A DNA stretch of 64,000 bases from Magnetospirillum molischianum DSM 120 (lineage in GTDB: Bacteria; Pseudomonadota; Alphaproteobacteria; Rhodospirillales; Magnetospirillaceae). The notes beneath the pieces are model-generated. The model was not told where the DNA came from. It did not search any database and worked only from the letters and a program-made list of their open reading frames with translations. Shown piece after piece: positions 58,746 to 63,713 of the stretch (within the stretch, counting starts at the first letter, position 1; each line of letters opens with the position of its first letter). The stretch covers positions 54,595 through 118,594 of the forward strand of contig NZ_CAHP01000011.1 in NCBI RefSeq assembly GCF_000294655.1, given 5' to 3'. The position numbers and the translations under genes are program-made.

Positions 58746-59159
58746 ATGACGATAGATTGGGATAGCAGCCTGGAAACAGGCGTCGCAGAGGTCGATGCGG
58801 ATCATCGAAACTTGGTGCGACTGGTTAACGACCTCGACAAGATGTTGTCGCAGGGCGTTGATTCCACTCGATTCGGCTCGGTGATCGATACGCTGATCGA
58901 TTATGCCGAGAACCATTTCCGCCTTGAGGAAGAGATGCTGGCCCAGTTGGGCTATCCCGACATCGCCGACCATGCCGAAAGCCATGTCGGCTTCGCCCAC
59001 CAGTTGGGCGCGATGGTTGCGGGGTGTATCATCGATCCTGGCCCGGCCTCGATCGCCCGTCTGCGTGATCATCTTCACACATGGCTGATCGACCATATCC
59101 TGCGTGAAGATATGCGTTTCGCCCCCTTCGTCCGCGAACGCCTGAACCAAAAACCCTAG
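58746..59159 (+). CDS. Bacteriohemerythrin
   Basis: This 137-residue single-domain hemerythrin has a di-iron, O2-binding four-helix bundle. Predicted ligands are His20, His57, Glu61, His76 and His80, with the C-terminal HLHTWLIDHILREDMRF supplying the last His and Asp. Stand-alone bacteriohemerythrins carry or sense O2, often in microaerobic bacteria. It is divergent from hcp with a shared FNR-type box, which suggests joint induction at low oxygen or under nitrosative stress. Confidence 0.93.
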   Translation: MTIDWDSSLETGVAEVDADHRNLVRLVNDLDKMLSQGVDSTRFGSVIDTLIDYAENHFRLEEEMLAQLGYPDIADHAESHVGFAHQLGAMVAGCIIDPGPASIARLRDHLHTWLIDHILREDMRFAPFVRERLNQKP

Positions 59160-59469: not shown

Positions 59470-62400
59470 ATGACCCAGGTTACCTCCCCCGCGCTTGCCT
59501 CTTTGCCCGGCCTCCGCGATCCGTCCCTGCTGCGCGACGAGCGGCTGGACGAGATTTTCGCCGCGACCGTGGCCCGGACCCCCACCGCCGCCGCTGCCAC
59601 TTTCGGCAGTATCACCCTGGATTATTCCGGTCTGGCCGCGCGGGCGGAGCGGATCGCGGGCGCGCTGGCCGCGCGCGGTATCGGCCCAGGCGCTTTCGTC
59701 GGGCTGTGGATGAGCCGGTCGCTTGATCTCCACGCCGCTCTGCTTGGTATCCTGCGCAGCGGAGCGGCCTATATCCCTTTCGATGCCGACGCGCCGTCGG
59801 ACCGCATCGCGGAATGCCTGTCGGATTGCCGTGCCACCGCAATCCTGGTCGATGCCGACACCGCCGGACGGATCGTCCAGCCCCTACCCGCCCCGACTTA
59901 TGATGTAGCGACCCTGCTGGGGTCGGAACCGGCTTCCTCCGCCCCAAATCCGCGTGAAATCGGCGCGACACCGAACGACCCGGCCTATCTGATCTATACC
60001 TCCGGTTCGACCGGACGCCCCAAGGCGGTCGTGGTTCCCCATCGGGCCATCTGCCATTATCTGCGCGCCGCCAACAGCCTTTACGGCATTGTCGCGTCCG
60101 ATGTGGTGTTCCAGGGGGCCTCGGTCGCGTTCGACCTGTCGCTGGAAGAAATCTTCATCCCGTATCTGGTCGGGGCCCGGCTGTGGATCGCCGGTCCGCG
60201 CACCCTGGCCGAAACCGAGCAACTTCCCGATCTGCTGGGCGAAGCCGGAATTACGGTACTCGATACCGTCCCGACGCTGCTGTCCCTGCTTCCTCGCGAT
60301 ATCCCCTCGTTACGGCTGATCATCCTGGGGGGCGAGGCCTGCCCACAGGCACTGGCCGAACGCTGGTGCCGCCCCGGCCGTCATCTGTTCAATTCCTATG
60401 GCCCGACCGAGACCACCGTCGTCGCGACCTTGGCCGAGCTTGACCCCGGCACCCCGGTCACGATCGGCGGCCCGATCCCCAATCACACATGCTGGATCGT
60501 CGATGAGGCTCTGGCACCAGTGGCTCCCGGCGCAACCGGCGAACTGCTGATCGGTGGGCCGGGCGTCACCGATGGCTATCTCGGCCGCCCTGACCTGACC
60601 GCCGAAAAGTTTATCGCCAATCCGTTCGAGCATGACGGACTTGCCCCGGTCTTGTACCGCTCCGGCGATGCGGTAAGCCTCGACGCGGCCGGAACCCTGC
60701 TGTTCCACGGTCGGATCGACGATCAGGTCAAGATTCGCGGCTTCCGTGTCGAACTGGGCGAGATCGAAGCCCGTCTGGCCGCCCTGCCCGGCATCGAACG
60801 GGCGGCGGTGGCCCTGCGCCGCGATGGAGGCGACGAACGTCTGGTCGCTTTCGTGGTGACGACAGCGAACGCCACCCCGGATCAGGCGGCGTTGCGCACC
60901 GCGCTCCGCGAACGTCTGCCCGCTTATATGGTGCCGTCGCTGTTCCAGCCGGTGCCCGACCTGCCCCGACTGATCTCAGGCAAGCTCGACCGCAAGAGCC
61001 TCGCGACCCTGCCACTGACCGAAACAGCAGCCGACGAGCAGGAAAATCCTGCCACTCCGACCGAAGCCAAGCTGCTGAACGCGGCCCGTCCAATCTTTCC
61101 CGGCCAGTCGATTCCGTTTGACGCCGACTTCTTCCTTGATCTCGGCGGACATTCCCTGTTGGCGGCACGCTTCGTCTCGATAGTGCGCCAAGACCCGTCG
61201 CTGGCCAGTCTGACCCTGACCGAGATCTACGCCACCCGGACCTTGCGAGCGATGGCCGCATTGCTGGATGCACGGGCTCCGGCCCCCGGCACCGTTGCCG
61301 CCGACCTATCGTTCGAACCGCCGCCACTGCTGCGCCGGGTGCTGTGTGGTCTGGCCCAAGCGGCGGCGATGCCGTTAGTCCTGACTCTGACCACCCTGCC
61401 CTGGCTGGGCGTGTTCGTCAGCTACATGCTGCTCTCGGGCGAGGAAGCCGGGTTGGGCCGCGAGTTGGTCACCCTGATGCTGACCTACGCGGTTATCAAT
61501 ATCGGCACCATCCTGGGATCGATCGGGCTGAAATGGCTGGCGATCGGCCGCACCCGGCCCGGACGCTATCCGCTGTGGGGTGTTTATTATTTCCGCTGGT
61601 GGCTGGCGCAGCGGATGGTCAACGTCGCCCACGTCAAATGGTTCCAGGGCACCCCGATCATGGGGCTGTATCTGCGGGCGCTGGGTGCCAAGGTCGGCAG
61701 TGACTGCATCATCGGCGAAGTCGAGGCCGGAGCCTTCGACCTGATATCGATCGGCCAGGGCGTGGTGATCGGCGGCAAGGCCAAGTTGGCCAACGCAGAA
61801 GTCGTCGGGAACGAACTGGTGATCGGGACGATTTCAATCGGCAACGATGCCCATATCGGCACCTCGTGCGTGATCGGGCCGGATACGGTGCTGGCCGACG
61901 AAACCGAACTGGCCGACTTGACGTCAATTCCGCCCGGCGTCCATACCGGCCGGGCCGAATTTTGGGAAGGGTCGCCAGCCCGCCGGACCGGCACGGTCGA
62001 TGTCGCGTCTCTGCCCGAGCCGGCCCGTGCCACCCGAACCCGCAAGGCCGTTCTCAGCGCCTTTTACCTGCTGATGCTGGTGATTCTGCCGCCGATCAGC
62101 CTGATTCCGATCTTTCCGGCCTTCTACCTGTTCGAAAGCCTGAGCGAGATTATCGCGGGCAGTGGGCCGCACGATTACCTCTACATTTTGCCATTGCTGG
62201 CATGGCCCACGGCTATGGCGCTGATCGTCGTCACCGTGCTGCTGATCGCCGTGATGCGCTGGACCGTGTTGCCGGTCGTCACCGCAGGCACCTACTCGGT
62301 TTACGGCGGCTTTTATGTCCGCAAGTGGATCGTCGCGTTGGCCACGGAACTGATGCTGGAAACGCTGTCGTCGCTCTACGCCACCCTATACATGCGGCTA

Positions 62401-63468
62401 TGGTACAGGCTGATGGGGGCCAAGATCGGCCGCGACGCCGAAATTTCCTGCAATCTGTCCGGGCGTTACGATCTGACATATATCGGCGAGAAAAGCTTTA
62501 TCGCCGACGAGGTGATCCTGGGCGACGAAAGCGTCCGCCGCGGGTGGATGGAACTTGAGCCGGTGCGGATCGGTCCCCGTGTCTTCGTCGGCAACGATGC
62601 TGTCGTGCCGCCGGGTGCCATCATCCCCGAGGGAACCCTGATCGGTATCAAGTCGCTGCCGCCGGACAACGACGCAATCAGCCCGGGCGATACCTGGTTC
62701 GGCAGCCCTCCGATCAAATTGCCGGTTCGCCAGCGCTTTGACGGTGGTGGAGCCGCCTGGACCTACGAACCCCCGCAATGGCGGCGGGCGTGGCGCGCGT
62801 TCTTCGAAGCCTTCGCGGTGTCGCTGCCCAGCATGCTGTTCATCACCTTTGGTATTCTGTCGGTCGAGGTGCTGGACCAGTGGATCGCACGGCATGATTA
62901 CGGCACCGTCGTTGTATTGTTCTGCGCCGCCAGTGTCGCGATCTCGGTGGCGTTGACCCTGTGCGCGATCACGGTGAAGTGGCTGATGATGGGACGTTAT
63001 CGCCCGACCGCGAAACCGATGTGGTCGTGGTGGGCGTTACGCACCGAAGCGGTCGCGGTGATGTATTGGGGCATGGCTGGCAAGGTGATGCTCGATCATC
63101 TGCGCGGCACTCCGTTCCTGCCCTGGTTCCTACGGCTGTTCGGCAGCCGGATCGGCCGGGGTGTCTTCATGGATACCACCGACATCACCGAGTTCGATTG
63201 CATCGATGTCGGCGATTTCTGCGCCATCAATGCGGCTTCGGCCTTGCAGACCCACCTCTACGAGGATCGGGTGATGAAGGTCGGGATCGTCACGCTAAGG
63301 CGCGGCGTCACCATCGGAGCCGGTTCGACCGTCCTGTACGACACCGATGTCGGCGATTTCGCCCGTATCGGCCAATTGACCATCGTGATGAAAGGCGAAG
63401 CGATTCCCGCTCACGGAATCTGGGAAGGGGCCCCGGCCCAAACCGACGCTTCGAACGCCAGACCGTGA
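59470..63468 (+). CDS. Pls/PosA-type single-module NRPS (poly-amino-acid synthetase-like)
   Basis: This 1332-residue protein has the architecture of epsilon-poly-lysine synthetase (Pls): adenylation domain (about 20-510; YTSGSTGRPK at 176-185, NSYGPTETT at 308-316, SGKLDRK at 503-509), carrier domain (phosphopantetheine Ser562 in GGHSLL), and then three tandem C-terminal units (about 617-870, 890-1100, 1105-1325). Each unit is a pair of transmembrane segments plus a hexapeptide-type left-handed helix domain. There is no condensation or thioesterase domain. Known Pls enzymes link basic amino acids through side-chain amides. Hand-aligned specificity residues are D222, L223, E226, D265, I285, G287, S309, V317, V318 and K505, and the acidic pair suggests a cationic substrate. 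ATG 59470 was preferred to an open 39-codon extension. Confidence 0.88.
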   Translation: MTQVTSPALASLPGLRDPSLLRDERLDEIFAATVARTPTAAAATFGSITLDYSGLAARAERIAGALAARGIGPGAFVGLWMSRSLDLHAALLGILRSGAAYIPFDADAPSDRIAECLSDCRATAILVDADTAGRIVQPLPAPTYDVATLLGSEPASSAPNPREIGATPNDPAYLIYTSGSTGRPKAVVVPHRAICHYLRAANSLYGIVASDVVFQGASVAFDLSLEEIFIPYLVGARLWIAGPRTLAETEQLPDLLGEAGITVLDTVPTLLSLLPRDIPSLRLIILGGEACPQALAERWCRPGRHLFNSYGPTETTVVATLAELDPGTPVTIGGPIPNHTCWIVDEALAPVAPGATGELLIGGPGVTDGYLGRPDLTAEKFIANPFEHDGLAPVLYRSGDAVSLDAAGTLLFHGRIDDQVKIRGFRVELGEIEARLAALPGIERAAVALRRDGGDERLVAFVVTTANATPDQAALRTALRERLPAYMVPSLFQPVPDLPRLISGKLDRKSLATLPLTETAADEQENPATPTEAKLLNAARPIFPGQSIPFDADFFLDLGGHSLLAARFVSIVRQDPSLASLTLTEIYATRTLRAMAALLDARAPAPGTVAADLSFEPPPLLRRVLCGLAQAAAMPLVLTLTTLPWLGVFVSYMLLSGEEAGLGRELVTLMLTYAVINIGTILGSIGLKWLAIGRTRPGRYPLWGVYYFRWWLAQRMVNVAHVKWFQGTPIMGLYLRALGAKVGSDCIIGEVEAGAFDLISIGQGVVIGGKAKLANAEVVGNELVIGTISIGNDAHIGTSCVIGPDTVLADETELADLTSIPPGVHTGRAEFWEGSPARRTGTVDVASLPEPARATRTRKAVLSAFYLLMLVILPPISLIPIFPAFYLFESLSEIIAGSGPHDYLYILPLLAWPTAMALIVVTVLLIAVMRWTVLPVVTAGTYSVYGGFYVRKWIVALATELMLETLSSLYATLYMRLWYRLMGAKIGRDAEISCNLSGRYDLTYIGEKSFIADEVILGDESVRRGWMELEPVRIGPRVFVGNDAVVPPGAIIPEGTLIGIKSLPPDNDAISPGDTWFGSPPIKLPVRQRFDGGGAAWTYEPPQWRRAWRAFFEAFAVSLPSMLFITFGILSVEVLDQWIARHDYGTVVVLFCAASVAISVALTLCAITVKWLMMGRYRPTAKPMWSWWALRTEAVAVMYWGMAGKVMLDHLRGTPFLPWFLRLFGSRIGRGVFMDTTDITEFDCIDVGDFCAINAASALQTHLYEDRVMKVGIVTLRRGVTIGAGSTVLYDTDVGDFARIGQLTIVMKGEAIPAHGIWEGAPAQTDASNARP

Positions 63469-63713
63469 CCGGACAGCATGTGCAGAAGCGATCAGTGATG
63501 ATCGCTGGCCACGCCAGCAGCGTGACCTTGGAAGAAGCGTTTTGGGACGAGTTGAAGCAGATTGCCGCCGATCGTGGGCAATCGGTCAATCAGCTCGTTA
63601 CCGAGATCGATTCGGGCCGATTCGGCCCCCAGGCTCCCGGATCGCTCTCGTCTGCGATCCGGGTTTTCGTGCTGGGCTGGGTCAAGGAAGGTGCCCCCCC
63701 CTCACCACCTTAA
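63465..63713 (+). CDS. Ribbon-helix-helix domain protein
   Basis: This 82-residue protein starts at GTG 63465 and overlaps the NRPS stop by four bases (GTGA). It has the alphaproteobacterial RHH_4-type pattern: RSVMIAGHASSVTLEEAFW, then DELKQIAADRGQSVNQLV, and the C-terminal SLSSAIRVFVLGWV. Such proteins are small DNA-binding or adaptor proteins of unclear targets. ATG 63498 is a shorter alternative, but the RSVxIAGH stretch is usually part of the family. Translational coupling to the NRPS suggests linked expression. Confidence 0.75.
   Translation: MTGQHVQKRSVMIAGHASSVTLEEAFWDELKQIAADRGQSVNQLVTEIDSGRFGPQAPGSLSSAIRVFVLGWVKEGAPPSPP

Follow-up and report, generated by a model that had tools for sequence, protein, structure and literature searches.

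A Pls/PosA-family synthetase of Magnetospirillum molischianum with a predicted basic substrate and an overlapping ribbon-helix-helix gene

A candidate cationic homo-poly(amino acid) synthetase

The DNA analysed here, called the window, is a stretch of 64,000 nucleotides from Magnetospirillum molischianum DSM 120 (assembly GCF_000294655.1, contig NZ_CAHP01000011.1, positions 54,595 to 118,594). It carries a gene for a synthetase of 1332 residues whose C-terminal part is assigned by profile to the Pls/PosA family, followed by an overlapping gene for a ribbon-helix-helix (RHH) protein (Table 1). We give a probability of about 0.7 to the reading that the enzyme is a Pls/PosA cationic homo-poly(amino acid) (CHPA) synthetase, which takes a basic substrate, builds an isopeptide chain with the help of H1262 and is regulated by the RHH protein. 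The adenylation (A) domain would form the adenylate of a basic amino acid (L-ornithine and L-lysine are the likeliest), which would then be loaded onto the phosphopantetheine arm at Ser562 of the carrier (T) domain. The membrane-embedded domain of three beta-helix units would join the side-chain amine to the carboxyl of the next unit, and a polycationic isopeptide chain would grow, with H1262 of a Q-x-H motif as the best candidate for the catalytic residue. Translation of the RHH protein is probably coupled to that of the synthetase, and the protein may repress or tune the same operon.

Polycationic isopeptides are few, and a fungus is reportedly among the characterised makers. These include actinomycetes and Acinetobacter baumannii in the account given in parts of PMC10522769, and a passage of PMC9606270 describes the biological significance of the polymers as unclear. 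The Pls/PosA family is known, as are its layout and homopolymer products, and automated annotation assigns such genes to it by name, for example in Azospirillum. New here are the placement of the enzyme beside PosA, its presence in 17 of 17 genomes of the genus, the coupled RHH gene and the invariant Q-x-H motif. The purpose of the polymers could well be studied in a clade such as this, which is present throughout a genus and in Hyphomicrobiales often stands at a housekeeping locus. The window gene offers a concrete assay target: one protein, few candidate amino acids and one mass spectrum.

Table 1. Features of the synthetase locus, in positions of the window
Feature	Position	Strand	Basis
Pls/PosA-family synthetase, 1332 aa	59470..63468	+	open reading frame; TIGR02353, 593.9 bits
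Adenylation (A) domain core, residues 30-371	59557..60582	+	PF00501 AMP-binding, 254.9 bits
A-domain C-terminal subdomain, residues 431-505	60760..60984	+	PF13193 AMP-binding_C, 41.2 bits
Carrier (T) domain, residues 544-599	61099..61266	+	PF00550 PP-binding, 26.2 bits
Predicted membrane polymerisation domain, three units of long helix pair and left-handed beta-helix	61354..63438	+	TIGR02353; AlphaFold; local Foldseek matches
Span of pocket residues D222 L223 E226 D265 I285 G287 S309 V317 V318 K505	60133..60984	+	alignment
Q1260-x-H1262 motif in the third beta-helix, candidate catalytic site	63247..63255	+	conservation
RHH_4 ribbon-helix-helix protein, 82 aa, GTG start	63465..63713	+	PF13467, 89.0 bits; 4-nt overlap

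Domain architecture and family membership

The NCBIfam profile TIGR02353 ('Pls/PosA family non-ribosomal peptide synthetase') matched residues 629-1323 with 593.9 bits at a cut-off of 423.1, and nearly the whole profile was aligned (positions 2-695 of 695). A preliminary description, made from the sequence alone, had called this part Pls-like; the profile search could have placed it outside the family and placed it inside. Matches to TIGR02353 below the cut-off are common (13 of 14 control genomes, 1 above the cut-off), and only those above it were therefore counted. The synthetase was the sole match above the cut-off among the four in its own genome. Pfam matched the A and T domains and also hexapeptide repeats (Hexapep), and neither Condensation nor Thioesterase was among the six Pfam families listed for the synthetase at E <= 0.001. 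The T-domain serine is Ser562 (codon 61153-61155), which was kept in 117 of 117 alignment rows with the DLE-type pocket defined below and in 22 of 22 other family rows. The translation starts of the synthetase and the RHH gene are those inferred from the sequence. On a contig of Magnetospirillum fulvum (locus L011) a protein was 93% identical to the synthetase across residues 364-1332, which groups the genome with Magnetospirillum/Phaeospirillum.

The hydropathy maxima of the membrane domain formed six regions. An AlphaFold model of residues 612-1332, which drew on 41 sequences, that of the window plus 40 taken from 80 relative loci, had a mean predicted local distance difference test score (pLDDT) of 87.1 and a predicted template modelling score (pTM) of 0.88. 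In it, a long helix pair and then short strands resembling those of a beta-helix occur three times. Hydropathy and model thus predict the family layout of six paired membrane helices and three beta-helix units, and section 13 of PMC10522769 describes a PosA model with a matching layout. Pfam, hydropathy and AlphaFold agree with the layout first described, namely A and T domains, three membrane/hexapeptide units, no condensation or thioesterase domain and 1332 residues. We conclude that the A-T-membrane architecture is established at the level of profile and structure model.

Conservation pointed to one motif of the membrane domain. Of the ungapped DLE rows, 116 of 116 had glutamine at Q1260 and 115 of 115 had histidine at H1262, and 22 of 22 other rows kept both residues. 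H1262 was the only histidine of the membrane domain to pass the thresholds of more than 97% of the 117 DLE rows and more than 90% of the 22 others. Beta-helix acyltransferases commonly use a histidine base. We propose that the Q-x-H motif in the third beta-helix may be the condensation site, with H1262 as the best catalytic candidate.

The Foldseek matches to beta-helix proteins, hexapeptide transferases and gamma-carbonic anhydrases among them, were all local, and among the 50 matches listed no solved fold covered the whole membrane domain (query TM-score at most 0.16). Acyltransferases are frequent among left-handed beta-helix proteins and account for several of the local matches. This would suit a beta-helix that works as an ordinary acyltransferase: one basic amino acid, or a few, would be passed to an acceptor such as a lipid, a sugar or a small molecule, and no free homopolymer would be made. 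Passages of PMC9606270 report that Pls is able to esterify added alcohols, and part of PMC13291983 describes a family member within a hybrid cluster of polyketide synthase, non-ribosomal peptide synthetase (NRPS) and polyunsaturated fatty acid genes. However, section 14 of PMC10522769 lists seven products of such enzymes, that of PosA included, and all are homopolymers, one of them branched. No acceptor-pathway gene was recurrent among the larger neighbour clusters examined, for which the gene calls were crude. We regard transfer to an acceptor as unlikely and polymerisation as the preferred reading.

PosA as the nearest characterised synthetase

The A domain scored 365.8 bits against the A domain of PosA (8g95) and 294.1 bits against the epsilon-polylysine synthetase 7wew. 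8g95 was the top PDB chain with a single A domain; the higher-ranked scores of LgrA and 8xjz sum two A domains. Identity to PosA (L144) was 52.1% across window residues 196-512 and 37.4% across 621-1325, and identity to the polylysine-type locus L148 was 45.8% and 29.4% across the same two regions.

In a tree of 48 rows, made from window residues 196-1325 with a quick method, the window fell inside an alphaproteobacterial clade of 28 rows (support 100). The DLE pocket was found in 28 of these 28 rows and in none of the 20 rows outside. Five PosA-type rows neighboured the clade, and the joint group of 33 rows had a support of 100. Separate trees of 33 rows placed the window clade (15 rows) beside the five PosA-type rows in both cases, with support for this pairing of 100/98 in the A-domain tree (residues 196-512) and 88/99 in the membrane-domain tree (621-1325). 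Since both trees gave the same pair, the A-domain and membrane-domain halves appear to share one history. By these sequence comparisons, the nearest characterised clade is that of PosA, the delta-poly-L-ornithine synthetase of Acinetobacter baumannii, and not the polylysine synthetase of Streptomyces. The enzyme had at first been likened to the Streptomyces epsilon-poly-lysine synthetase. This comparison stands for size, layout and family, whereas by bits and trees PosA is closer.

PosA (parts of PMC10522769; PDB 8G95-8G98) shares the A-T-membrane layout and the family profile, but the window enzyme belongs to the alphaproteobacterial clade. Likewise, the epsilon-poly-L-lysine synthetase (Pls; 7wew) is alike in layout, size and family but stands in a separate clade. 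The gamma-poly-diaminobutyrate (Dab) and beta-poly-diaminopropionate (Dap) synthetases share family and layout and have Phe at pocket position 2, where the window has Leu.

The substrate pocket

The pocket columns follow the motif positions of the Stachelhaus code and were verified with controls. The alignment gave DLEDIGSVVK for the window, identical to the code that had been read by hand. The A. baumannii control gene (L144), whose A domain was identical in its letters to PDB 8g95 throughout the printed alignment, yielded DMEHNGTVSK, the published PosA code. The Streptomyces locus L148 gave DAESIGTVVK, and its best PDB match was the epsilon-polylysine synthetase 7wew with 720 bits. For L147 and L152 the codes were DFECLSAVTK and DFECLSVVTK. 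Each of the two adjoins a diaminobutyrate aminotransferase gene, and these neighbouring genes suggest that the code DFECLS[A/V]VTK points to diaminobutyrate. Phe at position 2 was found in L147, L152, L153, L115-L118, L121 and L123. An aspartate kinase gene also adjoins the synthetase in L147.

The pocket alignment had 144 rows, the window and 143 loci; L001 and L085, which hold the window's own gene, were left out. The rows are not independent, as several genomes occur twice and one source search used the window protein and so favoured near relatives. The DLE type was found in 117 of the 144 rows and other codes in 22, and the pocket region was wholly or partly missing in five (L011, L099, L107, L108 and L155). 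The DLE codes were DLEDIGSVVK (73 rows), DLEDLGTVVK (35), DLEDVGSVVK (3), DLEDIGTVVK (3; L016, L106 and L146), DLESVGSVVK (2) and DLESIGSVVK (1).

The acidic pair expected in a family pocket is present as D222 (position 1) and E226 (position 3), which align with D217 and E221 of PosA. Passages of PMC10522769 report that the activity of PosA depends on Asp217 and Glu221, and that none was detectable in their alanine mutants. Because D222 and E226 match these residues, a basic amino acid is, by analogy, the likely substrate. L-ornithine and L-lysine are the most likely first candidates, and no dedicated gene is required for the supply of either. The preliminary description had argued that two acidic pocket residues fit a basic substrate; of such residues, D265 lends this less support than had been claimed, since it aligns with His260 of PosA, a residue for which section 14 of PMC10522769 found no interaction with the substrate. 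According to the same paper, in its part on Met218, this residue of PosA sets the chain length, with Phe in the makers of Dap and Dab polymers, Met in PosA and Ala in polylysine makers. Leu223 is near to Met in size, which hints at ornithine. Dab and Dap were disfavoured as substrates, with Leu and not Phe at position 2. None of the eight matches to the Dab aminotransferase profile TIGR00709 in the genome was above the cut-off, in a search that did not extend to Dap-specific genes.

Several points weigh against the reading of a polymer of ornithine or lysine made by a relative of PosA. The code DLEDIGSVVK equals no characterised code that we saw. It has positions 1 (D), 3 (E), 6 (G), 8 (V) and 10 (K) in common with the PosA-type code and differs from it at five of ten. 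From the polylysine-type DAESIGTVVK of L148 it differs at three of ten, namely 2 (A to L), 4 (S to D) and 7 (T to S), and agrees at 1, 3, 5, 6, 8, 9 and 10. Leu at position 2 is nearer to Met (ornithine) than to the Ala of the epsilon-polylysine type, whereas positions 5 and 9 match the polylysine type and differ from PosA, so that the hints at the substrate disagree. A diamino acid cannot be assumed, because a family member from Bdellovibrionales was modestly active with L-arginine and not with the tested diamino acids, as stated in parts of PMC10522769. In the trees, the join of the membrane domain to PosA (88/99) was below the starred support level. All trees were midpoint-rooted and gave long-branch warnings for other rows, in the 48-row tree also for the clade member L146.

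Asp at pocket position 4, unlike the Lys, Orn and Dab types, would suit an enzyme with another product, whose substrate is arginine or some other basic amino acid that is not a diamino acid. We consider this quite improbable. Arginine side chains are not prone to isopeptide bonds, and the position-4 Asp is not strictly kept, being replaced by Ser in 3 of 117 rows of the DLE type. Section 11 of PMC10522769 describes a relative with another pocket that activated L-Arg, but the window pocket differs from the DSECYGGVTK of that relative. Ornithine or lysine remains the preferred reading. DSECYGGVTK, the pocket given in the same section for the Bdellovibrionales enzyme activating arginine, was also found in L150 (a Streptomyces plasmid) and L140 (an alphaproteobacterium).

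Pockets near-identical to that of the window have been listed in PMC10522769, a 2023 paper. Its section 10 prints the CHPA signature 'D L E D I G T V T/V/I K' as uncharacterised, for Archaea, Rhizobia and Methylobacterium, and the window pocket differs from it only at position 7 (T there, S here). For the alphaproteobacterial clade, no paper giving a product came up in full-text searches of a PMC collection that has subscription papers mostly outside it and excludes supplements. The earlier view that the product of this lineage is undescribed agrees with the literature searched, although that signature shows the pocket type to have been published before.

The overlapping RHH gene

The RHH protein matched PF13467 from 63465 to 63710 with 89.0 bits at a cut-off of 25. 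Its GTG start overlaps the stop codon of the synthetase as GTGA by 4 nt. A start at ATG 63498, which would leave a 29-nt gap, was rejected: it scored 77.7 bits versus 89.0 and cut the domain, and the RTGA overlap is conserved. This overlap was present in 16 of 17 genus genomes, the window included. In the exception, L093, the RHH ATG lies 76 nt downstream. The RHH gene was adjacent to the synthetase and on the same strand in 17 of 17. posA, by contrast, is described in part of PMC10522769 as a single-gene operon.

RHH genes were searched for by tblastn with the RHH protein (E <= 0.001) in the loci L001-L155, a search that a much diverged RHH protein could escape. Matches came from 26 loci, all of them in the 17 genus genomes, some of whose contigs are represented more than once. 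Outside the genus, no tblastn match stood beside the synthetase in the loci searched; these include L100-L106 and L109, with 0.9-1.5 kb of downstream DNA, as well as L012-L014 and L016-L084, with up to 6 kb, some shortened by contig ends. RHH_4 genes as such are general: 36 of 36 relatives have them, whether the synthetase is present or, as in G017 and G020, absent. The coupling therefore looks like a property of the genus and not like general equipment of the enzyme.

The general occurrence of RHH_4 genes and the lack of matches beside the synthetase outside the genus would both be expected if the RHH protein were functionally unrelated and the overlap reflected compact packing, which is a serious possibility that falls somewhat short of an even chance. 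However, the RHH gene is kept adjacent to the synthetase throughout the genus, nearly always with the overlap, while the upstream neighbours of the synthetase vary among the genus loci. The sequence evidence is suggestive of a dedicated regulator of the synthetase within the genus. The proposal that the RHH protein is a dedicated partner is confined to the genus by these results. The genome of M. molischianum has two RHH_4 genes; the second (contig C20, 303593-303775, L157) lies downstream of a gene that by eye resembles a GNAT acetyltransferase.

Distribution across genomes

Window-protein matches that reached the membrane domain showed the synthetase in 26 of 60 relatives. These were 17 of 17 genus genomes and 9 of 19 other genomes of the family, with none in the 24 genomes from other families of the order. 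The surroundings had been called a core region, which holds for the genus and less so for the rest of the family. In two genus genomes (G012 and G015) the synthetase was in two pieces on different contigs. In G008, a single-contig genome of the genus (L107, C1:1471882-1475846), the frame changes near residue 241-246 and leaves two open frames, owing to a pseudogene or a sequencing error.

An evenly drawn sample of 398 genomes of the phylum contained 26 with a match above the TIGR02353 cut-off. In another family, f27, the number was 80 of 119, a count that covers the whole Pls/PosA family. A member of f27 groups with Methylobacterium in the 48-row tree, and the pocket was of the DLE type in 12 of 12 f27 genomes read. 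At least one member, G457 (814.5 bits), may have another pocket type. Relatives in Azospirillum and Rhizobium were on records classed as plasmids, which weighs against a purely chromosomal core role. Two records labelled Acinetobacter phage MD-2021a (CAKLQH020000021.1 and CAKLQF020000019.1) carry a PosA-like gene annotated entF_2, possibly host DNA.

The alphaproteobacterial DLED clade might make an undescribed homopolymer, a basic chain with its own linkage or length, with a standing role in the cell envelope rather than as an antibiotic. This is a tentative idea and on balance a doubtful one. It is put forward because the synthetase is found in every genus genome, is common in another family, there often between gpmB and aroC, and may have its own RHH regulator in the Magnetospirillum relatives.

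Neighbouring and supporting genes

The neighbours of the synthetase were surveyed in 83 loci (80 named loci, L145, L146 and the window). The genes came from a codon-usage gene caller, which is crude, with loose starts, and which missed the RHH gene of the window. The recurrent neighbours were fabI/short-chain dehydrogenase genes (50 loci; this cluster mixes FabI with other short-chain dehydrogenases), gpmB (45) and aroC (43). In 33 of the 83 loci, gpmB was directly upstream and aroC downstream of the synthetase. This housekeeping setting would fit vertical keeping rather than a mobile antibiotic cluster. No precursor or export gene was among the recurrent neighbour clusters obtained with these crude gene calls. 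A phosphopantetheinyl transferase gene adjoins the synthetase in 8 of the 83 loci (L005, L007, L008, L010, L015, L018, L019 and L146; not in the window), Pfam-checked in two of them (L005 and L018). The genome of M. molischianum has two phosphopantetheinyl transferase matches above the cut-off.

Just upstream of the synthetase in the window is a divergent pair of genes for a Hybrid-cluster protein (Prismane, PF03063; 57031-58599, minus strand) and a hemerythrin-domain protein (58746-59159, plus strand). Just beyond the window, in L162, an enoyl-CoA hydratase-like gene, pyrE, an LrgB-like gene, a class III aminotransferase gene and hemA were recognised by eye. Only the class III aminotransferase had a profile match, to TIGR00709 and below the cut-off. 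Elsewhere in the genome, the contigs C12 and C20 contain large NRPS-like open frames of 5314 and 2227 residues with A-domain matches.

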